Of a stretch of DNA of 64,000 nt, positions 4,451-17,831 are shown piece by piece. This DNA comes from SAR86 cluster bacterium SAR86B (GTDB lineage Bacteria > Pseudomonadota > Gammaproteobacteria > Magnimaribacterales > Magnimaribacteraceae): positions 51,023 to 115,022 of the forward strand of contig CAJJAM010000030.1 of the NCBI GenBank assembly GCA_905182235.1, given 5' to 3'. Below the pieces are notes generated by a model, which was not told the origin of the DNA, made no database searches, and saw only the letters and a list, made by a program, of their open reading frames with translations. Within the stretch, counting starts at the first letter, position 1. The number at the start of each line of letters is the position of its first letter. Position numbers and translations under genes: made by a program.

Positions 4451-6757
4451 ATGAATACAACAAAGAATTTTACTGAAACTTGTGCAGAAAAAATAATTCA
4501 GTACAGATATTTATCAATACTCTTTTGTTTAATCCTCTTAGTAACCTCTTTTCGTGGGGTTGGCGGGATTGCTTTCTCACCCGATACAGAGCAATTTTTT
4601 CCCGAAGATTATCCTATAGCCGAAAACCATCTTCAGATTGAAGATACTTTCTATTCTAGTGATAGCGTTATTATTGCGCTCGGCGTTGATGAAGGAACAG
4701 TATTTGAACCTCGAATACTAAATTTAATTGAAGAAATTACCAATAAAGCCTGGAGCACACCTCATTCAATAAGGGTTGATTCACTAAGCAACTTCTCTTT
4801 TGTAAGGGCAGAAGGTGACGACCTTATAGTCGAGCCATTTATTGAAGAATCTCTTCAATGGAACCAGGAGAAAATTAATGAAAGATCTGCTCTGATAGAA
4901 AAAGAAGAACAGGCGTACGGAACTATTCTGTCAAAAGACAAACAAACAACGTTCATCAATATAAGTATTGATGCCCCAAAAGATGACGTAGAAAAAGAAT
5001 ATGCAGAATCCATGGAACATATTTTTGCTTTTATGGATCCTTTAAAAGAAGATTATCCAGAGGCGGACATAAGATACGCTGGTATTGTTTACGTGGAATA
5101 TTTAAGTCCGTTAATAATAAAAGCTGAAATGCCCATCCTTATCCCAACTTTACTGTTTGTAATTTTATTATCACTTTTTATCTTATTGAGAAACGTAGCA
5201 GCAGTAATAGGCTCTCTGATGGTTATTGTATTCAGCGTGATCGCCTCGGTGGGAATACTGGGTCATTTTAATACCACTGTGTCGCAACCATTCTTAATGG
5301 TTGTCATAGTGGTGGCGACGTTAGCCGTAGCTGACTGCGTTCATTTATTTAACGTCTATTTTCAAAGTAAGTTAGAGAAAAGTACCAAGGATTCGATTAT
5401 TAAAAGTTTGCAGTTAAATCTAGAACCTTTACTGCTGACTTCTCTGACAACATCGATAGGGTTTCTTTGTTTGAACCTGGCTCCAATACCTGCACTTAGA
5501 GTTGTAGCGAACGGTATAGTTATCGGCGTTTTAGCTGCGTTTATATTTTCTATATTCTTTCTTGCTCCATTAATGAGCTTTTTTAATGTTAAAGCGTCCA
5601 GTCAAATTGAGAATCAAACAAAACTATCGAGAAGAGTTGGTCAATTTAGCTTAAAAAACAGAAAAAAAATTATTTGGTTAGTGCCTCTATTTTCAATCTT
5701 CTTTATGTCTTTTATTCCTCTCAATGAAACTAAAGACAATCCAATGGAATTTTATTCGGATAGATTCACATCAGTAACAGAAGACACGAAGTGGCTTGCA
5801 AAAAGGCTTGGAGGAACCTTTTTAGTAACTTATGAATACGTTAGTGAAGATCTAATCAGTGACCCTGAATACTTACGTCAGTTGGATGACCTTACAAGTT
5901 GGTTGGAAAAACAAGACGAAGTTCTATCGGTAAATTCATTATCTAAAATAATTAAGAACCTAAATAGAACACTTAACGGAGATGATCAATCATGGTACGT
6001 CATTCCTGAAGACTCTGAATTAATTGCACAATATTTATTCTTCTATGAAATGTCACTTCCTTTTGGTCTTGATTTAGCAAGTTCCATTAATCAAGAAAGG
6101 ACTTCTACGAAGATCACAGTTTCTCTAAAAGAGATAGACAGTAAAGCGTTCATAAAATTTTACGACAAGGTAGAAAACTACGCCAACCTATCTATTGTGT
6201 CTGGTAATTTATCTGAAGGCGGGGGAACGAGATCCGTTATGTCTTTCATGGGCATGATTCTTGCTGAGCAACTCTTATATGCGCTTATTATCGGATTTGT
6301 TGTCATTACTTTGACCATTGCACTCTTTTATCGATCCTTAAGCACAGGACTCATAACTGCAATTCCGAATGTACTGCCCATAGGGGTAGCTTTTGGGATC
6401 TGGGGCATCTTTAGCTCAAACGTTAGTATGCTTGTTAGCCTTGGTATAGGTTGTACCCTGGGAATAGTCGTAGATTTTTCTGTTCATTTTTTGAGCAAAT
6501 ATTTACACGCAAGGCGAGACTTAGGTCTTACTGCAGAAGAGTCAATTCTTTATGCATTTGAAACTGTTGGTTTTCCTTTAACCATAATGACGGTTTCATT
6601 GTGTTTAGGTTTTGCTGTTCTTCTGCTGGCCAGCTTTATGCCTCTTCGTGGCTTTGCTGGTATTACAATGGTTTCCTTTGTGGCTGCTTTGATCATTGAT
6701 CTTTTACTTTTCCCAGCGATTCTAATAGCCTGGGATGGTAAGAAAAAATACAATTAA
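4451..6757 (+). CDS. RND/MMPL family transporter
   Basis: 768 aa, two duplicated halves of TM clusters with a large extracytoplasmic loop each; MMPL-like motif GCTLGIVVDFSVHFLSKY. Confidence 0.88.
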   Translation: MNTTKNFTETCAEKIIQYRYLSILFCLILLVTSFRGVGGIAFSPDTEQFFPEDYPIAENHLQIEDTFYSSDSVIIALGVDEGTVFEPRILNLIEEITNKAWSTPHSIRVDSLSNFSFVRAEGDDLIVEPFIEESLQWNQEKINERSALIEKEEQAYGTILSKDKQTTFINISIDAPKDDVEKEYAESMEHIFAFMDPLKEDYPEADIRYAGIVYVEYLSPLIIKAEMPILIPTLLFVILLSLFILLRNVAAVIGSLMVIVFSVIASVGILGHFNTTVSQPFLMVVIVVATLAVADCVHLFNVYFQSKLEKSTKDSIIKSLQLNLEPLLLTSLTTSIGFLCLNLAPIPALRVVANGIVIGVLAAFIFSIFFLAPLMSFFNVKASSQIENQTKLSRRVGQFSLKNRKKIIWLVPLFSIFFMSFIPLNETKDNPMEFYSDRFTSVTEDTKWLAKRLGGTFLVTYEYVSEDLISDPEYLRQLDDLTSWLEKQDEVLSVNSLSKIIKNLNRTLNGDDQSWYVIPEDSELIAQYLFFYEMSLPFGLDLASSINQERTSTKITVSLKEIDSKAFIKFYDKVENYANLSIVSGNLSEGGGTRSVMSFMGMILAEQLLYALIIGFVVITLTIALFYRSLSTGLITAIPNVLPIGVAFGIWGIFSSNVSMLVSLGIGCTLGIVVDFSVHFLSKYLHARRDLGLTAEESILYAFETVGFPLTIMTVSLCLGFAVLLLASFMPLRGFAGITMVSFVAALIIDLLLFPAILIAWDGKKKYN

Positions 6758-6826
6758 ATACGAAAGGTGTGCATAAAGAATAGACTATAAAATATAGTGT
6801 GTTCGATAATAACCAAGAGAAGAAAC

Positions 6827-7720
6827 ATGGGAATATCATCAGACTTTAAATACTCGAAATCTTTTATGACTATTAATGGTAAGAATTTAGCTTACGTTGA
6901 TTCAGGTGAAGGAGACCCAATAGTCTTCTTGCACGGCAATCCTACCTCCTCTTACTTATGGAGAAACGTCATGCCTCACCTTGAAGGAATGGGTCGCTTG
7001 ATTGCACCCGATCTGATTGGCATGGGAGATTCAGACAAGCTGGATAACTCTGGGCCAGGTCGATACACGTTCATCGAACATACTGAGTATTTATATGCAT
7101 TGCTTGAAGAACTGGATCTCAACAGCGTTACTTTAGTTATTCATGACTGGGGTTCTGCTCTAGGATTTAACTGGGCTGCTCTAAACCCAGATAAGATAAA
7201 ATCCATTGTCTATATGGAAGCAATAACTGGACCGATTGAGTCATGGGATGACTGGCCCGAGCAAGCAAGAAATATATTTCAACTCTTCAGATCAGATGCA
7301 GGAGAAGAATTAATTTTAGAGAAGAATTTCTTTGTTGAGAGGGTGTTCGCGGGAGATGTTGGCATGCACAGAGCTCTTGAAAAACAAGAATTAGATGCCT
7401 ACATTAAACCGTTCGAAAAAGAAGGTGAATCAAGGCGTCCGACGCTGACCTGGCCTAGACAAATTCCTATAGAAGGAGAGCCAACAGAAGTGGTTGAAAT
7501 AGTAAAAAATTACGCTAAATTTATGAGCGAAACGCAATTACCTAAATTATTTATAAACGCAGATCCTGGTTCAATTCTTATTGGAAAACAAAGGGAAGTA
7601 GCGAGAAAGTGGCCCAATCAAAAAGAAGTCACTGTAAACGGAGGCCATTTTATTCAAGAAGTATCTCCGGATGAAATAGGAGAATCTATAAAAGATTTTC
7701 TAATCGGTCTCAATAAGTAG
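6827..7720 (+). CDS. Haloalkane dehalogenase-like alpha/beta hydrolase (HLD-II type residues)
   Basis: HGNPTSSYLWRN (halide-binding Asn), VIHDWGSALGF (nucleophile Asp plus Trp), YMEAITGPIESWDDWPE (catalytic Glu), NGGHFIQE (His); ORF-track start 6797 is likely too early, RBS AGAGAAG precedes ATG 6827. Confidence 0.87.
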   Translation: MGISSDFKYSKSFMTINGKNLAYVDSGEGDPIVFLHGNPTSSYLWRNVMPHLEGMGRLIAPDLIGMGDSDKLDNSGPGRYTFIEHTEYLYALLEELDLNSVTLVIHDWGSALGFNWAALNPDKIKSIVYMEAITGPIESWDDWPEQARNIFQLFRSDAGEELILEKNFFVERVFAGDVGMHRALEKQELDAYIKPFEKEGESRRPTLTWPRQIPIEGEPTEVVEIVKNYAKFMSETQLPKLFINADPGSILIGKQREVARKWPNQKEVTVNGGHFIQEVSPDEIGESIKDFLIGLNK

Positions 7721-8971
7721 TTCTGGTTCCTTTTCATTTGATCTTGTCATGCTGGGAATGATAAATAAGCAGGGAATTAATATTATCGAACCAAGGATAA
7801 AGGACCCAGCGTAACCAAAAGCCGCGAAGCTCATAGGAGCAATTTGATTGCCTATTAATGTTGAAAAGTTAGCGAGCCCCATAAAAACACCAAAATTTGT
7901 TGCACTAGTTCTAGTAACGCATAACGACATTAGTAGAGCAAACATGATGACTTGAGAACCCACAACCGCTATATCCACTCCAAGTAAAATTAAAAACCCA
8001 TTTGAAGCTATTAACTCAACATCAGCTGTTCCTAGAAATAAATACAACAACAACTCTAAAAAAACAAAACCTAACAATAAATATCTACTGCCATAGAAAG
8101 ATACACCCACACCAACCAATAAGCCTATAGCTCCTCCTGTCCACATTCCCCATGGTCTTGCGGCCCCTATCTGCTCCCCCGTCCAAGCTAACTCTTCGAT
8201 AAAGAACTTATTAAAAAGGACATCATAAATACCAACACTAATTCCGCTTATTGTCATGAAAAGAAGTGCCCAAAGAGCAGGCTTAGTGTTAAACCCCTGC
8301 AGGATTTCAGATATTAATTCTTTTAAAGGCATCCTGTTCGCCTGCCTCACCTCTTCTTTTGAACCAACCTTATGATCTAGTTCTTGTGATAAGAGAGGAA
8401 CTAGCATTATGAGGCCTATCATTGCCATCAAAACCAACAGGCCGGCACTAACGCCAAAGCTCAAATATATCGCAACAGAAGCCGATAACCCTATGCCTTT
8501 TGCAAAAACCTTACTACCCCACATCAGTCCATTGGCTTTTCCTAAAGCCTTTTTTTCAAGGCTATCAGCAGCCAATGCATCAGTAGCGATATCTTGAGTT
8601 GCTACAAATAGATTATGTATGGCTAAGATGATTGCCATGCTCATGGAGTACTGTCCATTTTCAATAAAGAAAAGAGGAACTAAAGATAAAATCATTAATA
8701 GCTGACTTAGTAATATCCAGAACCTTCTTCTACCAAATCTAAGGACCGTAAATCCATCCACAAAAGGTCCTAAAAGAAATTTAATCGTCCACGGTATCAT
8801 TGTTATGGATAACAAAGATGATATCTCCAGAATAGAAGCCCCTTGAACAGTTAAATAGGTTGTCAGGCCAAACCCTAGAAAACCTGCAGGAAGACCTTGA
8901 GCAAAATAAAGAGCACTTAAAGAGAATAAGTGCCACGGAGATCCGTAAGCCAGTAATCTAGAATTTTTCAT
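7700..8971 (-). CDS. MFS transporter, AmpG/PAT-like
   Basis: 423 aa, about 12 TM segments; LYFAQGLPAGFLGFGLTTYLTVQG and IPWTIKFLLGPFVDGF motifs. Confidence 0.82.
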   Translation of the reverse strand: MKNSRLLAYGSPWHLFSLSALYFAQGLPAGFLGFGLTTYLTVQGASILEISSLLSITMIPWTIKFLLGPFVDGFTVLRFGRRRFWILLSQLLMILSLVPLFFIENGQYSMSMAIILAIHNLFVATQDIATDALAADSLEKKALGKANGLMWGSKVFAKGIGLSASVAIYLSFGVSAGLLVLMAMIGLIMLVPLLSQELDHKVGSKEEVRQANRMPLKELISEILQGFNTKPALWALLFMTISGISVGIYDVLFNKFFIEELAWTGEQIGAARPWGMWTGGAIGLLVGVGVSFYGSRYLLLGFVFLELLLYLFLGTADVELIASNGFLILLGVDIAVVGSQVIMFALLMSLCVTRTSATNFGVFMGLANFSTLIGNQIAPMSFAAFGYAGSFILGSIILIPCLFIIPSMTRSNEKEPELLIETD

Positions 8972-8998
8972 TTATCAATGGTTCTGTGTAAGCTTTTC

Positions 8999-9982
8999 TT
9001 ATGAATTAAAAGTATCGTTAATTAATTGATAGGATTCTTGTCTAGCAGAAAAAGGCTCGCATATTGTAATGATTTTTAGCTCCTCTGGAACCACTTTGTC
9101 TAAAAGAGGCTTTAATTTATCTTTTACTAAAGTGGGCGATCCTACAAAGGTTCGATTATCTGATTCAGTAACTGATTCAGCGTTTATCTGACTTCTTGAC
9201 TCTTCCATGGTTGGGAAGGCAGAAAATTTTCCTACTTGGCTGTTCTTTCTCCAAAGAGCAGCACTCGAAGCCAGTTCTTCGGCACGTTTATCAGTTTCAG
9301 CACAAATACTAAAAACTCCTAGACTGATTCTTGGAAATTCTGAGAATGCTGAAGGGACAAAATTTTTCCTGTAAATCTCAGCCAAGTGCAAACAATCTTG
9401 ATTGATAAAATAAGCCAAAGACATAGGAAGACCAAACTGTGCTGCGTATTCAGCACCTTGTTGAGAAGAAACTAGAAGCCAAACTTCAGGTAAATTACCT
9501 AAACCAGGCGTGACGCTAACGCTTTCAAAAGATTCTGTTGAAGAGATTTCTCCTGAAAGAAAGGATCTTAAATCATTCATCTTTGTAGGGAAAAATTCAG
9601 GGCCTGTTGTCTTTGAACCATAAGCCAAAGCTCCAGCTTGATAAGGATCGCTGCCCGGCGCCCTCCCGAGTCCTAAATCAATACGTTTTGGAAACATAGA
9701 TTCTAAAAGACGAAAATTTTCTGCAACTTTATAGGGACTGTAATGCATCAACATGACCCCTCCTGAACCAATACGAATCTTTTTAGTGGCTGCAGCCAAT
9801 CGAGGCATTAAAATTTCAGGCGAACACCCTGCAAACGAAGTAGAGCCGTGGTGCTCAGCAACCCAAAATCTATTTAGCCCAATGGAGTCAGAGAACTCTG
9901 CTAAACGAAGTGTTTCCTCAATAGCCTGATTGGCGTCGGTATTGGTAAAAATTGGAGACTGATCAACCACACTAATCTTCAA
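8999..9982 (-). CDS. LLM-class flavin-dependent oxidoreductase (luciferase-like, MsnO8-type)
   Basis: MKISVVDQSPI..., FWVAEHHGSTSFAGCSPEILM, RIDLGLGRAPGSDP. Confidence 0.88.
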   Translation of the reverse strand: MKISVVDQSPIFTNTDANQAIEETLRLAEFSDSIGLNRFWVAEHHGSTSFAGCSPEILMPRLAAATKKIRIGSGGVMLMHYSPYKVAENFRLLESMFPKRIDLGLGRAPGSDPYQAGALAYGSKTTGPEFFPTKMNDLRSFLSGEISSTESFESVSVTPGLGNLPEVWLLVSSQQGAEYAAQFGLPMSLAYFINQDCLHLAEIYRKNFVPSAFSEFPRISLGVFSICAETDKRAEELASSAALWRKNSQVGKFSAFPTMEESRSQINAESVTESDNRTFVGSPTLVKDKLKPLLDKVVPEELKIITICEPFSARQESYQLINDTFNS

Positions 9983-10102
9983 ACTACTGCCCTTATAATT
10001 TATATAACTTTGACTAATAACATTCCTGTTAAATTATAACAGTTTCAACAGTTTACTATTATGAGTTTAGGGTATAAGTTAAAGAATAATTTATAGAAAA
10101 AG

Positions 10103-11659
10103 ATGCGAACCCCTATAAAAAAAATATTTACATTTGACCCATTCGAAGAGAAGAAAGAAAGACAAATTCATCAAGTTCAGAACTTAATTTGGGGAGAATG
10201 GACAAAAGAATTAAGAGAAAATGAAGAGATTCTTGATCCAGTATCAGGTGAAATTTTTCTAAGAGTTCCTAATACTACTGATTTTTCAGAATATATTAAA
10301 AATTTTGATAGATGCCCTAAAAGTGGCCTTCATAATCCTATTAAAAACCCCGATAGATATTTAATGTTGGGTGAAGTTTCTAGAAATGCTTCAAGAATCC
10401 TGAAAGAAAAGAGTGTTGAGCAATACTTTTGTAAACTCATACAAAGAGTCATGCCTAAAAGCAAAAGCCAATGCCTTGGTGAAGTTGAAGTAACAAGGGT
10501 ATTTTTAGAAAATTTTTCCGGAGACAATGTTCGCTTTCTTGCTAGGAGTTTTTCTAATCCTGGTAATTATCTTGGTCAAGAAACTTCTGGTTACCGATGG
10601 CCATTTGGATCCGTTTGCATAATAGCTCCTTTTAATTTTCCTTTAGAAATACCCGTATTGCAAGTTATGGGTGCTTTGTTTATGGGGAACAGACCTCTGG
10701 TTAAAGTCGACTCAAAAGTCAGCGTTGTGTTTGAACAATTTTTAAGACTCTTAATACATTGTGGCCTACCTGCTTCCGATGTTGATTTCATAAATTGCAA
10801 AGGAGAAGTTATGGGTGAACTAATAAAAAGAAGTAAAAATCAAATCAGACTGCTTCAGTTCACAGGTTCCAAAGAGGTAGCTCAGCGATTAAGCCTAGAG
10901 ACTTTTGGAAAGATAAAAATTGAAGATGCAGGCTTTGATTGGAAGATAATTGGGCCCGATTATGACCCCAAATGGGCTAAACATGTAGCCTGGCAATGCG
11001 ACCAAGATGCTTATAATGCCTCTGGTCAAAAATGTTCGGCTCAAAGCTTTCTGTTTGTTCATAAGAATTGGGAGAAAGATCTTTTGCCGAGACTTAAAGA
11101 ATTAGCTTCAAAAAGAAAACTGGAGAATCTAGGTATTGGTCCTATTTTAACTTGGACTAATCAGCAAATTACAGAACATATTGATTGTTTGCTGACCATA
11201 CCTGGTTCAAGAATCTTATTCGGCGGTAAGAAATTATTAAACAACACCATACCTCCTATTTATGGTTCTTATCAGCCTACAGCTTTAGAAATACCTATAG
11301 AGAAAATTTTGGGAGATCATTTTGAAATAATAACCAAAGAAGTCTTTGGGCCATTCCAAATTATTGTCGTCTACGAAGATAAGGACATGAAGATTGTTAA
11401 AAAGACTTTAGAAAATATTTCTCAAAACTTAACTGCAGCAATAGTAAGTAATGATATTTTATTTCAACAGGAAATATTGGCCAGTACGGTAAATGGAACA
11501 ACTTATAGTGGAATGAAAGCCCGTACTACGGGAGCTCCTCAAAACCATTGGTTTGGTCCTTCTGGAGATCCGAGATCTGCAGGAATAGGAACGCCAGAGG
11601 CAATAATTAGTACCTGGAGCTCACATAGAGAAATTATTAAAGACGTAGGTCCTTTGTAG
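10103..11659 (+). CDS. ALDH12-type delta-1-pyrroline-5-carboxylate dehydrogenase (aldehyde dehydrogenase superfamily)
   Basis: GYRWPFGSVCIIAPFNFPLEIPVLQVMGALFMGNRPLVKVDSKVS, IEDAGFDWKIIGPD, QCDQDAYNASGQKCSAQS (catalytic Cys), TTGAPQNHWFGPSGDPRSAGIGTPEAI; resembles remembered plant ALDH12A1 end to end. Confidence 0.8.
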   Translation: MRTPIKKIFTFDPFEEKKERQIHQVQNLIWGEWTKELRENEEILDPVSGEIFLRVPNTTDFSEYIKNFDRCPKSGLHNPIKNPDRYLMLGEVSRNASRILKEKSVEQYFCKLIQRVMPKSKSQCLGEVEVTRVFLENFSGDNVRFLARSFSNPGNYLGQETSGYRWPFGSVCIIAPFNFPLEIPVLQVMGALFMGNRPLVKVDSKVSVVFEQFLRLLIHCGLPASDVDFINCKGEVMGELIKRSKNQIRLLQFTGSKEVAQRLSLETFGKIKIEDAGFDWKIIGPDYDPKWAKHVAWQCDQDAYNASGQKCSAQSFLFVHKNWEKDLLPRLKELASKRKLENLGIGPILTWTNQQITEHIDCLLTIPGSRILFGGKKLLNNTIPPIYGSYQPTALEIPIEKILGDHFEIITKEVFGPFQIIVVYEDKDMKIVKKTLENISQNLTAAIVSNDILFQQEILASTVNGTTYSGMKARTTGAPQNHWFGPSGDPRSAGIGTPEAIISTWSSHREIIKDVGPL

Positions 11660-11661
11660 GT

Positions 11662-12675
11662 TTATAGACCAACTGGTTTCCCGTCTACAACCTGATCTAA
11701 ATATTCGGACATTCCATAACCAACTATGCCCTTGTATGTGTATTCGGTCATGCCTTCTGAAATTCTAGTGGTTAACATTTTTCCTTCTGGATTTTCACGT
11801 CTATTTCTAAGCGGAATAAGTGACAACACTTTGCCTTCTATCTCGTATTCGTCCTTGTCTGTTTTCGCCCAAGCTTTGAAGCTAGTATGAAAATAGTCTT
11901 CATCATATTCGGTTTCAATTCTGCAATCTTTAATGGTTTGATATTCTCCATCTACCAAGACAATCCCGCCACGCTTTTCTGAGTCCTCATTTTGATGAAC
12001 AATACTTAACATAAAACCAATTTCGTCGTTAATGTTTATCGTTAACCACCTATACCACTCAATGGCTTGCCAATAACGCGGACCCCAACTCTTATCTCTA
12101 AGACCAAGTCCTTGTATAGCCCACTCCTCATCTCCTACTTTGATGGTGCCAACACCGGAAGTGTGTTGCTCGTAGTGAGCTTTAGAAAAACTCTTTTCTG
12201 GGTCTGAATTCATAGGAGATCCATCTTTACGAACTGCTTGACCACCAAACATTGGGGATATTCCTTCAATTTGAATATTAACTTCGCAAGGCTGCGTAAT
12301 GTTAGATTTAAATGCTTTTGCAGGATCCATCATTTGTTTTGGGTCTTCTAGAATCAACAACTTACCAGTGTAAGAAACTGCAAGTTTTTTAAAAGGCTCT
12401 AGAACCTTAAACTCCATTCCTCCGGCATTAAATAGCTCATTAGTGTCAATACTTGGTCTGCCAAACATAAAACCTACTTTTCCGTCTGGTAGGTATAAAC
12501 AGCAGGTCATTTCCGCGTAACCTTCGTTGGGTCTATTTCCTAATCTAAACCACCCGCCTATCTTTGATGAGTGATCAAAGACATTGAAATACATACTCTC
12601 GTTATAATTACTGACTTCATCTGGGATATGATTAAACTCATCTTCTGGCTCTAGTTTTATTATTATTTCGCTCAT
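11662..12675 (-). CDS. Conserved hypothetical protein (possibly DUF7064/DUF7065-like, lipocalin-related fold)
   Basis: 337 aa intact ORF; WAIQGLGLRDKSWGPRYWQAIEWYRWLTI motif; 4-bp overlap with queG start region; family name tentative. Confidence 0.55.
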   Translation of the reverse strand: MSEIIIKLEPEDEFNHIPDEVSNYNESMYFNVFDHSSKIGGWFRLGNRPNEGYAEMTCCLYLPDGKVGFMFGRPSIDTNELFNAGGMEFKVLEPFKKLAVSYTGKLLILEDPKQMMDPAKAFKSNITQPCEVNIQIEGISPMFGGQAVRKDGSPMNSDPEKSFSKAHYEQHTSGVGTIKVGDEEWAIQGLGLRDKSWGPRYWQAIEWYRWLTININDEIGFMLSIVHQNEDSEKRGGIVLVDGEYQTIKDCRIETEYDEDYFHTSFKAWAKTDKDEYEIEGKVLSLIPLRNRRENPEGKMLTTRISEGMTEYTYKGIVGYGMSEYLDQVVDGKPVGL

Positions 12676-13748
12676 TTTTTCTCTTTATTCTTGTGTTGCT
12701 CTATGGCCCAGTTTACATGCTCTTTTACTATCTCTGAAGGATCATCTTTCTTTGAATGGAGAACCCTTAAAACTTCAACGGAAGACTCAGCATTTCCCAA
12801 AGCAATAGCTATATTTCTTAACCAGCTTTCATAGCCTGCACGCCGTATAGGAGAGCCCTGTGTTTTTTCCAAGAATTCCTCTTCTGACCACATGAAAAGG
12901 TTCGATAAATCTATGTCATCTAGATTGTGTCTAGGTTTAAAATCAACTTCGTCCGTGATCTTTAAAAATTTATTCCAAGGACAGAATATCTGACAATCAT
13001 CACAACCAAAAATTCTATTACCCATCATTGGTCTTAATTCTTCTTTAATAGAGCCTTTGTATTCAATGGTTAAGTATGAAATACATTTTCTTGCGTCCAA
13101 TTGATTTGGACCTTCAAAAGCTTTTGTGGGACATACGTCCATGCAAGATGTGCAAGACCCGCAATGGCTTACAATTTCTGGCTCATCAATAGGTAGCTCC
13201 AGATCCGTGTATATTTCACCAAGAAAAAAATAAGAACCGGCATTCTTGTTTAAAAGAAGAGTATTCTTGCCAATCCAACCGAGGCCTGCCTTTTGAGCTA
13301 AAGCTTTTTCTAATACCGGGGCACTGTCTACAAAAACTCTATTCTCATGGGAAGAGTGAGCTTTAATTTTTGAGACCAATTTCTTTAATCTTGATCTCAT
13401 GATTTTATGGTAATCTCTTCCCCTTGCATAACCTGACACAAAGGCTTTCTTGTCTTTTTTTAACAACTCCAATCCGTTGTAATTTTCAGGCAAGTAATTC
13501 ATCGACAAGGAAATAATTCTTTTTGTTCCTTCGACCAGCTCTGCGGGTTGAGATCTTTTCTTCCCGTGCTTTTCCATGTATTTCATTTCACCGTGATAAT
13601 CTTTCTCGAGCCATTTTTCTAAGTACCTTTGATCTTGGGAAAGATCAATGTCAGTAATGCCTATCGAGCTAAAACCAAGTTCAGAAGACCAAAGCTTGAT
13701 CTGCTCTGCTAAGAGAGAAAGATCTTTTTTGGTCAATAAATTATTCAT
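12672..13748 (-). CDS. queG: Epoxyqueuosine reductase QueG
   Basis: CGSCTSCMDVCPTKAFEGPNQLDARKCISYLTIE and FGCDDCQIFCPWNKF 4Fe-4S motifs. Confidence 0.95.
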   Translation of the reverse strand: MNNLLTKKDLSLLAEQIKLWSSELGFSSIGITDIDLSQDQRYLEKWLEKDYHGEMKYMEKHGKKRSQPAELVEGTKRIISLSMNYLPENYNGLELLKKDKKAFVSGYARGRDYHKIMRSRLKKLVSKIKAHSSHENRVFVDSAPVLEKALAQKAGLGWIGKNTLLLNKNAGSYFFLGEIYTDLELPIDEPEIVSHCGSCTSCMDVCPTKAFEGPNQLDARKCISYLTIEYKGSIKEELRPMMGNRIFGCDDCQIFCPWNKFLKITDEVDFKPRHNLDDIDLSNLFMWSEEEFLEKTQGSPIRRAGYESWLRNIAIALGNAESSVEVLRVLHSKKDDPSEIVKEHVNWAIEQHKNKEKK

Positions 13749-13815
13749 GTATTAATTAGTGGAGAAAGTAAGCAAAGGCTATAATTTTAACTACAAATTT
13801 TTATATAGAAAACTT

Positions 13816-15330
13816 ATGCAACTTTATACCTCCAAACAAACTAGGAAAATAGATAATTTAGCAATTAAGCAAAAAGATATCAGTGGATATTCCTTAATGC
13901 AGGATGCTGCAGAATTCTCACTTAACGTATTAATACAAGAATGGGGAAAAGCTGATCAAGTTGTGGTGTTTTGTTCTAAAGGAAAAAACTCCGGAGATGG
14001 CTTTTTGTTAGCAAGCTATGCCAAAGAGTTTGGTCTCGATAGTTTGATTGTTCTTTCTTGTCCAATAAAAGATATCTCGGGTGTAGCCAAGAAAGCATTT
14101 GAAGAAGCTAAAGAATCCGGCGTTTCGGTTGTCAGTTTTAATTCGTTAAATAAAATAAAGATTACTAAAAACGCGGTCATTGTCGATGCACTGATTGGCA
14201 CTGGTCTCAAAGGAGAAGTCAGAAGCTCCATAAAAAAAGCTATTCAATCCATCAATAAGCTCAGTTTAAAAAACCCTGTTTTATCTTTAGACGTTCCATC
14301 GGGTATTTGTTCAGACACAGGGAAAACGAAAGGCGTAAGTGTTGTTGCGGACACTACGGCTACTTTTGTAGGCCAAAAAAGAGGTTGCTTTACTTCAGAA
14401 GGTCGTTCTTGCTCAGGTGAAATATTCTTTTCAGATCTTAATATTCCAAAAAGTGTCTCTTCTAAAGTAAAGTCAGAATGTTCTCTTTTGGATATGGAAA
14501 ACCAAATAGATAAAATTATCTTAAGAGATCTTAATTCTCACAAAGGTAATTTTGGTCACGTGCTCGTGGTGGGCGGAAATAGCGGTTACGGCGGAGCAGG
14601 CATCCTCGCAGCAAAAGCCGCAGCGTATTCGGGTGCAGGGTTAGTAGGACTGGCAACTAAACCTGAACATGTTGGACCTAGTATTGTTTCATGCCCTGAA
14701 GTTATGGCCATTGGGGTTAATTCTGGCCAAGACTTAGAATCTTATCTAGAAAACCCTAACGTAATAGCCATAGGGCCTGGCTTAGGTCAAACGGCCTGGT
14801 CGGAACAATTATTACAAAGAGTCTTTATTGAAGCTGACAGAAGACAAGTTGCAGTTATTTTAGATGCGGATGCATTGAACCTTTTGTCCACTCTTAAATT
14901 ATCAACCAAGAGACCGGACAATCTGGTTATCACCCCTCATCCAGGAGAAGCAGCTCGACTGCTTGGAAAAACAATACATGAAATAGAATCCGATCGATTT
15001 AAGTCAGTTGCACTTCTGCAAGAAAAATATAACGCCGTGGTTGTTTTAAAAGGATCAGGTTCTCTGGTTTGTTATAAAAAATCAGGTCTTCAAAAAATTG
15101 GTGTGTGTAATGCAGGAAACCCCGGTATGGCCACTGGTGGAATGGGGGATATTCTGACCGGCTTAATCGCGGGTTTATTAGCGCAAGGCTTGAACACTTC
15201 TGATGCTGTAGAAATGGGCGTGGATCTCCATGCCAAATCAGCTGATCTAGCTTCATTGGAAGTGGGTGAAATTGGTTTACTTCCAAGTGATGTTTTGGAA
15301 GAGATTAGGTATTTATTGCAATATGACTAA
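13816..15330 (+). CDS. nnr: Bifunctional NAD(P)H-hydrate epimerase / ADP-dependent NAD(P)H-hydrate dehydratase
   Basis: CSKGKNSGDGFLLA (YjeF_N), GNPGMATGGMGDILTGLIAGLLAQGL (carbohydrate kinase-like); ATG at 13816 aligns with usual MQLYT... start, ORF track GTG 13759 is upstream. Confidence 0.94.
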   Translation: MQLYTSKQTRKIDNLAIKQKDISGYSLMQDAAEFSLNVLIQEWGKADQVVVFCSKGKNSGDGFLLASYAKEFGLDSLIVLSCPIKDISGVAKKAFEEAKESGVSVVSFNSLNKIKITKNAVIVDALIGTGLKGEVRSSIKKAIQSINKLSLKNPVLSLDVPSGICSDTGKTKGVSVVADTTATFVGQKRGCFTSEGRSCSGEIFFSDLNIPKSVSSKVKSECSLLDMENQIDKIILRDLNSHKGNFGHVLVVGGNSGYGGAGILAAKAAAYSGAGLVGLATKPEHVGPSIVSCPEVMAIGVNSGQDLESYLENPNVIAIGPGLGQTAWSEQLLQRVFIEADRRQVAVILDADALNLLSTLKLSTKRPDNLVITPHPGEAARLLGKTIHEIESDRFKSVALLQEKYNAVVVLKGSGSLVCYKKSGLQKIGVCNAGNPGMATGGMGDILTGLIAGLLAQGLNTSDAVEMGVDLHAKSADLASLEVGEIGLLPSDVLEEIRYLLQYD

Positions 15331-15766
15331 AGAATTAAAAACTCTTCATGAAGAGCAAACCATTAGTGCTGGAGAAGATTTCTCTAAGGTTTTAACTTTG
15401 AAGAAAATTGACAGAGCACTCGTAATATTTCTAGAAGGCGACTTAGGTGCAGGTAAAACAACCTTTACAAAGGGGATTATGCGTGGACTTGGGCATAAAG
15501 GATTGGTAAAAAGCCCCACTTATAACTTAATAGAAATCTATGAAACAGAGCATTTAAAGATATTCCACTTTGACCTCTACAGAATAAAAGACCCTTATGA
15601 GCTAGAAGAAATCGGAATAAGAGAATACCTTGAAGAACCGTTGTCAGCTTGTATCTTTGAATGGCCCATAAACGCCAAGTCTTTATTGCCAAAACCCGAC
15701 TATCAGGTAAGCATAAAACACTTAAACGAAACTGAATCCGAAAGCAGAAAAATTAGCATCCAATAA
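15323..15766 (+). CDS. tsaE: tRNA threonylcarbamoyladenosine biosynthesis ATPase TsaE
   Basis: FLEGDLGAGKTTFTKGIMRGLGHKGLVKSPTYNLIEIYE; overlaps nnr stop by a few bases. Confidence 0.93.
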   Translation: MTKELKTLHEEQTISAGEDFSKVLTLKKIDRALVIFLEGDLGAGKTTFTKGIMRGLGHKGLVKSPTYNLIEIYETEHLKIFHFDLYRIKDPYELEEIGIREYLEEPLSACIFEWPINAKSLLPKPDYQVSIKHLNETESESRKISIQ

Positions 15767-15777
15767 TCAATACTATT

Positions 15778-16680
15778 ATGAAATTACTTATCCAATTAAT
15801 TCTTGTTTTATCAATCAATACAATCTCTGCAGACGGCCATTCAGAAATTGCAGAAAGAACAAAATTAGAGGACTTGGTTTTTTGTTTTGTTGGCGACACT
15901 GGAGAGTTAACAGACACTCAGTCTCTGGTAGCTCAATCCCTCGCCCAATCAGACTGCAGTATGATCTGGCACACAGGAGATATTATTTATCCTTCAGGGA
16001 TAGACGATGCAAATGACCCTGAATTTGATAATAAGTTTCTTACTCCCTTTAAAGAAATTTTAAATAAGGACATCCCTTTTTATCTCACGTTAGGAAATCA
16101 TGATTATAAAAAAGATCCCTCAGGCTATATTGAAATAGCAAATAAAAATCCTTTAATCAATTACCCTAATAATTTCTACGTTGAAGAGTTTGGCCCGGTT
16201 TGCTTCTTCGCTCTGGACACTTCCATTTTTGATAAACTTTATTTTTTCTACAAAAGAAGAGGACAGATCGACTGGTTAAATACTGCGGTTGATTCACTAA
16301 AAGAAAAATGTCAGTTTTCAATTGGTGTTGCTCACCACCCTCTCTTCAGTTCAGGAGACAGAGAAAAAGCAAGTCCACAGCTAGCAACTTTCTTAGAGAA
16401 ACATGTATTTGGAGTTATGGATATGTACATAACTGGACACAACCATGTCTTAGCCGATGAAGGAGATTTTCTAGGTACCACTCAACTGATTTCAGCAACC
16501 GGGAGTCTGCCTGGCGGCTCTCCAGAACAATCACCAGAAAATAAGTTTAATGTTGAAACACCTGGCTTCTTAAAGCTTCGATTTGTAACTCCCAATGAAG
16601 CAAATTACGAATTCATAAGTTCTGTAGACGGGAAATCTATCTGGGCAAACTCAAAGCAAGGACAGGGCTTAAGACCTTAA
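15778..16680 (+). CDS. Secreted metallophosphoesterase, purple acid phosphatase-like
   Basis: Signal peptide; FVGDTG, HTGDIIYPSG, LGNHDY, GVAHHPLFSSG, TGHNHVL motifs. Confidence 0.82.
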   Translation: MKLLIQLILVLSINTISADGHSEIAERTKLEDLVFCFVGDTGELTDTQSLVAQSLAQSDCSMIWHTGDIIYPSGIDDANDPEFDNKFLTPFKEILNKDIPFYLTLGNHDYKKDPSGYIEIANKNPLINYPNNFYVEEFGPVCFFALDTSIFDKLYFFYKRRGQIDWLNTAVDSLKEKCQFSIGVAHHPLFSSGDREKASPQLATFLEKHVFGVMDMYITGHNHVLADEGDFLGTTQLISATGSLPGGSPEQSPENKFNVETPGFLKLRFVTPNEANYEFISSVDGKSIWANSKQGQGLRP

Positions 16681-16733
16681 GCCTTATCTATTATTTTTAT
16701 AATAAATAGAATATAAACAGTTATATATAGATT

Positions 16734-17831
16734 TTAGTTAAAGTAATTAACTAATCTTGATTCCACTAATTTAGATAATGCCAAAGATGAAGTGAGGCCC
16801 GGAGAAGCATACCCAAGAACACTGATAATTACTGCTCCGTTAAAGTCTTCCACATCAACCACGAAATCATCCAAGCCTTCCAATGTTGGTCTAATTCCTG
16901 CATACCCTGGAGATAAATCTTCCTCTTTTAATCCAGGCCAAAAAGCTTGGACAGATTGATGAAACTCGCTCTTTCTATCTTCAGATTGAGAGTAATCTAT
17001 TTCAGAAATCTCATAAGCTGAAGGACCAAACCTAATGCCTTTCCCTAGGTCGATGGTCACATGCAGCCCTATGCTGTACTGAGTAGGAGTGGGATAAATC
17101 AAATGATTTAATTTTTCCTTACCTTGGTAAGTGTAGTACTCACCTTTTATGTATTTATTTTTAAATTTCTCTTCTTCGTAGATACTGTTGGCAATTTGGG
17201 TTGCGTTAATTCCAGCACAATTTATTAAATATTTTGTTTCTAAAATAAATTTCTCTTTTGTTTTTTTATCATGAATTAAAATTTCAAAACCTTTCCCGTT
17301 AGATTCAATGCTCAAACATTCATTGCCCAAAAGCACAGTTCCCTTTTCTTGCTCGAAGTCATTCCTTAAAGAATTCATAAAAGAGTGACTATCAAAAATT
17401 CCTGTGGAAGGAGAAAATAGAGACTCCTTTGAATAAATAAATGGGTAAGAATCTTTGATTGAATTGTCAAACTTTAGATCATGAACTCCACAGGAGTTTG
17501 CATTCTCAAAAATATTTTCTAACTTTTCAGTCTCTTCATCTGTGGTAGAAATAATAAATTTTCCGCACCGCATGTGTTGTATTTTTCTTTCCTGAAGATA
17601 GTCATAAAGCATTCTCTTTCCTTCTATGCACAACCTCGATTTAAGAGAATCTTTTTTGTAATAAATACCTGCGTGTATAACTTCAGAATTTCTGCTGGAA
17701 GTTTCTTGTCCAAGTGAAGAATTTCGTTCAACTATAAAAATATTTTCGAAACGTTTTGCTAGCCTACTTCCGATGGCAAGCCCGGAAACTCCTCCTCCTA
17801 TTATGAGACAATCTGCGTTGTATCTTTCCAT
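16734..17831 (-). CDS. FAD-dependent oxidoreductase, L-2-hydroxyglutarate oxidase-like
   Basis: CLIIGGGVSGLAIGSRLAKR dinucleotide-binding motif, SSRNSEVIHAGIYY signature, C-terminal GYAGIRPTLEG. Confidence 0.82.
   Translation of the reverse strand: MERYNADCLIIGGGVSGLAIGSRLAKRFENIFIVERNSSLGQETSSRNSEVIHAGIYYKKDSLKSRLCIEGKRMLYDYLQERKIQHMRCGKFIISTTDEETEKLENIFENANSCGVHDLKFDNSIKDSYPFIYSKESLFSPSTGIFDSHSFMNSLRNDFEQEKGTVLLGNECLSIESNGKGFEILIHDKKTKEKFILETKYLINCAGINATQIANSIYEEEKFKNKYIKGEYYTYQGKEKLNHLIYPTPTQYSIGLHVTIDLGKGIRFGPSAYEISEIDYSQSEDRKSEFHQSVQAFWPGLKEEDLSPGYAGIRPTLEGLDDFVVDVEDFNGAVIISVLGYASPGLTSSLALSKLVESRLVNYFN

Follow-up and report, generated by a model that had tools for sequence, protein, structure and literature searches.

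The locus described here raises the question of why a marine gammaproteobacterium carries a gene resembling the plant P5C dehydrogenase ALDH12, which reaction its product may serve and where the gene came from. It lies within a 64,000-nucleotide stretch (the window) from a SAR86 relative with a genome of 1.06 Mb, 83% complete, and the host is thus a gammaproteobacterium, as a preliminary description made from the letters alone had supposed. That description also proposed a bacterial reservoir of ALDH12 or a transfer from a eukaryote, and a role in proline catabolism.

The open reading frame (Table 1) begins with ATG, has no internal stops and contains all segments quoted in the preliminary description. 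When the protein was compared with PDB structures, the best match was the characterised maize ALDH12 (6d97; 648 bits, E 1e-193, residues 22-518) with 56% identity over 499 columns, and the next PDB family reached 63 bits. Pfam assigned the protein to the general aldehyde dehydrogenase (ALDH) family only, and all NCBIfam ALDH models among the matches listed, including those for P5C dehydrogenase and PutA, scored far under their cut-offs. As the NCBIfam models do not name bacterial ALDH12, such genes are likely annotated as generic aldehyde dehydrogenases.

Table 1. Positions, within the window, of the ALDH12 gene and of the codons and loop discussed in the text
Feature	Position	Strand	Evidence
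ALDH12-family GSA/P5C dehydrogenase gene (putative activity), 518 aa	10103..11659	+	ORF, homology, tree, fold match
Codon of Asn178 (PFNFP; conserved ALDH active-site Asn)	10634..10636	+	Invariant in 83 ALDH12 sequences
Codon of Glu274 (IEDAGFDW; expected general base)	10922..10924	+	Invariant in 83 ALDH12 sequences and outgroup rows
Codon of Cys311 (SGQKCSAQS; expected catalytic nucleophile)	11033..11035	+	Invariant in 83 ALDH12 sequences and outgroup rows
ALDH12 signature loop, residues 469-501 (SGMKARTTGAPQNHWFGPSGDPRSAGIGTPEAI)	11507..11605	+	Nearly invariant in ALDH12; unlike ordinary ALDHs

The residues expected from ALDH chemistry (N178, K201, E274, C311 and E413) are invariant in an alignment of 83 ALDH12 sequences, among which RTTGAPQNHWFG is also nearly invariant. 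The C-terminal loop reads RTTGAPQNHWFGPxGDPRxAGIGTPEAI with little variation throughout ALDH12, as opposed to PFGGxGxSGxG in the two ordinary ALDHs that form the outgroup for this loop, the PutA rows stopping short of it. The assignment was further supported by an AlphaFold2 model (28 sequences, pLDDT 81), for which a fold search returned 6d97 as the top PDB entry (TM 0.86, E 5e-57) ahead of the next protein at E 2e-23; the signature loop is of low confidence in this model. In a superfamily tree rooted with PutA domains and two ordinary ALDHs, and built with ALDH4 left out, ALDH12 was split from PutA and the other ALDHs by a 100/100 branch, in agreement with the placement proposed earlier. An orthologue in a separate assembly (L001) is 96% identical, and a dN of 0.018 against a dS of 0.15 between the two genes points to purifying selection on the window gene. 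Taken together, these comparisons confirm that the 518-aa protein belongs, over its full length, to the ALDH12 family of aldehyde dehydrogenases, and they support its label as a plant-type P5C dehydrogenase. The occurrence of ALDH12 in bacteria has been noted before (PMC10888605, citing Korasick et al. 2019, the reference also for the maize enzyme), so the family assignment is not new.

The family is scattered among bacteria. Among 35 sampled genomes of the window's family, which also includes the SAR86 genome G021 with locus L004, six gave full-length and two gave fragment matches, so that ALDH12 is present in some SAR86 genera; no match at the level of ALDH12 was found in genomes of the order's other families, nor was ALDH12 found in 398 other Pseudomonadota sampled or in the viral contigs and plasmids searched. 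A scan of GTDB species genomes, which reaches close relatives only, gave at least 80 matches, and among the matches listed these came mainly from Woeseiaceae and other uncultured gammaproteobacteria, then from Myxococcota and two CPR bacteria. The "plant" dehydrogenase of proline catabolism hence has a patchy bacterial reservoir, as had been anticipated.

Gene order in relatives gives an indication of the substrate. A run of ALDH12, ornithine aminotransferase (OAT) and a CtlX-like hydrolase occurs in the SAR86 locus L004 and in seven other marine gammaproteobacteria (L006-L011, L013), and the two OATs that were scored reached 507-524 bits at an NCBIfam cut-off of 378. The SAR86 genome G057 also has OAT paired with a CtlX-like gene, on a different contig from ALDH12. 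CtlX itself is a putative citrullinase yielding ornithine (PMC9007349). The CtlX-like proteins of the ALDH12 runs score 268-291 bits, under the cut-off of 334, and at the diagnostic residues of CtlX, FPNN and HTN, they show FPNW/YPNW and HSD/HTD instead; because of this their substrate may be either citrulline or arginine. The L077 locus, from Magasanikbacteria, has ALDH12 flanked by proS and proA, and proB is close by. Both contexts, the OAT/CtlX-like runs and, as an independent link, the proB/proS/proA setting, indicate glutamate semialdehyde. A literature search that reached few subscription papers returned no paper that deals with ALDH12 in SAR86, with the ALDH12-OAT-CtlX gene order or with a grouping of the plant enzyme with Myxococcota.

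Other genes accompany these runs. In L004 the run is followed by a gene for an Xaa-Pro dipeptidase (8724-9995; NF051886, above cut-off), and a similar gene comes after the OAT and CtlX-like pair of G057 (L149). In L008 a cluster on the opposite strand (8678-10806), adjoining the ALDH12 run, encodes a diaminopropionate ammonia-lyase and an agmatinase-family ureohydrolase; this cluster and the ALDH12-OAT-CtlX-like cluster both recur in seven loci.

In the window's own genus the ALDH12 gene stands alone, and its neighbours in the window have no clear arginine or proline link. A convergent gene only 2 bases away (11662-12675) encodes a 337-aa DUF7064/DUF7065 protein and is kept beside ALDH12 in L001. 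Nucleotide identity between the window (5001-16750) and L001, which comes from a genus-mate, forms a mosaic, with 68-75% at an MFS transporter gene (7750-8750), 95-98% across most of the ALDH12 gene and about 90% beyond it, a pattern that suggests homologous recombination.

The earlier advice to look for putA or a proline dehydrogenase (PRODH) elsewhere in the genome was followed by searching genome assemblies, as for all absences reported here, and neither was found in the window's 83% complete genome. Across the family PRODH was found in 3 of 35 genomes as compared to 94 of 164 from the rest of the order, where its open frames, at around 1020 aa, are as long as PutA. Neither OAT nor PRODH, nor a CtlX-like gene, was found in the window's genome, its genus-mate G053 or G045; with completeness of 83, 86 and 88%, a single gene would be missed by chance in all three in about 0.3% of cases, if misses are independent. 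An OAT-like match in the window's genome (278 bits) was rejected as a true OAT and is an ArgD/AstC-type aminotransferase. True OAT was found in 23 of 44 ALDH12-bearing gammaproteobacteria and in 39 of 274 genomes of a class sample, although these samples are phylogenetically non-independent and relatedness inflates the significance of the difference.

Since PRODH was not found and OAT is linked to ALDH12 in relatives, ornithine is a likelier source of substrate than proline. We therefore favour, with a probability of roughly three in four, a role in which the window's ALDH12 would oxidise GSA/P5C to glutamate, and in which SAR86 and neighbouring marine gammaproteobacteria would obtain this substrate mainly from ornithine, independently of proline dehydrogenase. 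The CtlX-like hydrolase would convert citrulline or arginine to ornithine, OAT would convert ornithine to L-glutamate gamma-semialdehyde, which is in equilibrium with P5C, and ALDH12 would complete the path to glutamate, presumably by attack of Cys311, hydride transfer to NAD(P)+ and deacylation assisted by Glu274. For the window's genus, one possible source of the semialdehyde is the ArgD/AstC-type aminotransferase acting on ornithine; alternatively, an OAT may sit in unassembled sequence. By this reading, some members of SAR86, one of the major lineages of the ocean, would use ornithine and citrulline instead of proline.

The proline-catabolic role originally proposed for the gene loses ground by the same evidence, but it is the alternative that survives best. 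The enzyme would then act as it does in plants, where the literature assigns ALDH12 to this pathway, and the PRODH would be either unassembled or non-homologous (for example an FAD amino-acid oxidase-like protein). Several ALDH12-bearing marine gammaproteobacteria do carry small monofunctional PRODHs, and G097 has a PRODH, the only one to do so of the family's eight genomes with ALDH12 matches (fragments in two cases). The other seven, however, have no Pfam proline dehydrogenase, and none of the loci inspected had a PRODH adjoining ALDH12, which makes this alternative improbable. An apparent closeness of PRODH and ALDH12 in the genome of L078 was rejected, as the contigs were of differing size.

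Somewhat less probable again is that the ALDH12 fold was kept and the substrate drifted to another aldehyde. This would fit the window's genus, where no feeder enzyme was found, and also the many Woeseiaceae that carry ALDH12 together with a full-length PutA (PRODH of PutA length), since a second P5C dehydrogenase would be redundant there; the ornithine route likewise leaves these ALDH12 bearers unexplained. Against drift, the signature loop and catalytic residues are unaltered from maize to the window protein, and the OAT and proB/proA contexts speak for the semialdehyde.

As to the origin of the gene, the six SAR86 sequences formed one clade (98/99) neighbouring other marine gammaproteobacteria, and maize ALDH12, the only eukaryote in the tree and on a long branch, was sister to Myxococcota (99/95), with CPR sequences next. 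A tree without the distant outgroup agreed (SAR86 100/98; maize with Myxococcota 98/94), and a clade of maize with SAR86 was rejected (p-AU 0.0016). Because maize joins Myxococcota and not SAR86, the proposed eukaryote-to-bacterium transfer is unsupported in its recent, plant-to-SAR86 form, and by this phylogeny unlikely. Recent plant or algal transfer, or an assembly contaminated with eukaryotic DNA, for which the 56% identity to maize and the rarity of ALDH12 in Pseudomonadota might be cited, is very hard to reconcile with the bacterial sister group, the p-AU value, the bacterial gene context, a GC content of 36% in the gene against 38% in the whole window, and the intact L001 orthologue flanked by matching neighbour genes. 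The trees suggest instead that the window gene is a member of a scattered bacterial family. Myxococcota are a concrete candidate for the bacterial sister group of the plant enzyme, and a bacterial donor of ALDH12 to plants is possible, as judged from one plant sequence. A wider scenario, in which ALDH12 is an old bacterial family, a Myxococcota-like donor gave plants their mitochondrial P5C dehydrogenase, and marine gammaproteobacteria use ALDH12 in a proline-independent pathway from citrulline/arginine via ornithine to glutamate that replaces PutA, is offered tentatively, and we would sooner doubt than assert it as a whole.

Compared with known systems, the window protein shares with maize ALDH12 the expected catalytic residues, the signature loop and the fold, whereas it starts about 20 residues later in the alignment and has no long N-terminal transit extension. 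The settings differ as well: in relatives the bacterial gene is found together with OAT, and the search of the window's genome yielded no PRODH. ALDH4-type P5C dehydrogenases (TIGR01236/01237/01238) and the P5CDH domain of PutA have the same general ALDH fold and would be expected to catalyse the same reaction, but the window protein scores only 62-86 bits with these models, at cut-offs of 485 or more, and the PutA domains stand across the fully supported branch described above. The closest parallel to the proposed ornithine route is citrulline utilisation by ctlX with ocd or aruFG (PMC9007349), in which, as would be expected of the CtlX-like hydrolase here, ornithine is supplied to the next enzyme; the known ctlX goes with ornithine cyclodeaminase or succinyltransferase, whereas the CtlX-like gene of the marine gammaproteobacteria adjoins OAT and ALDH12.
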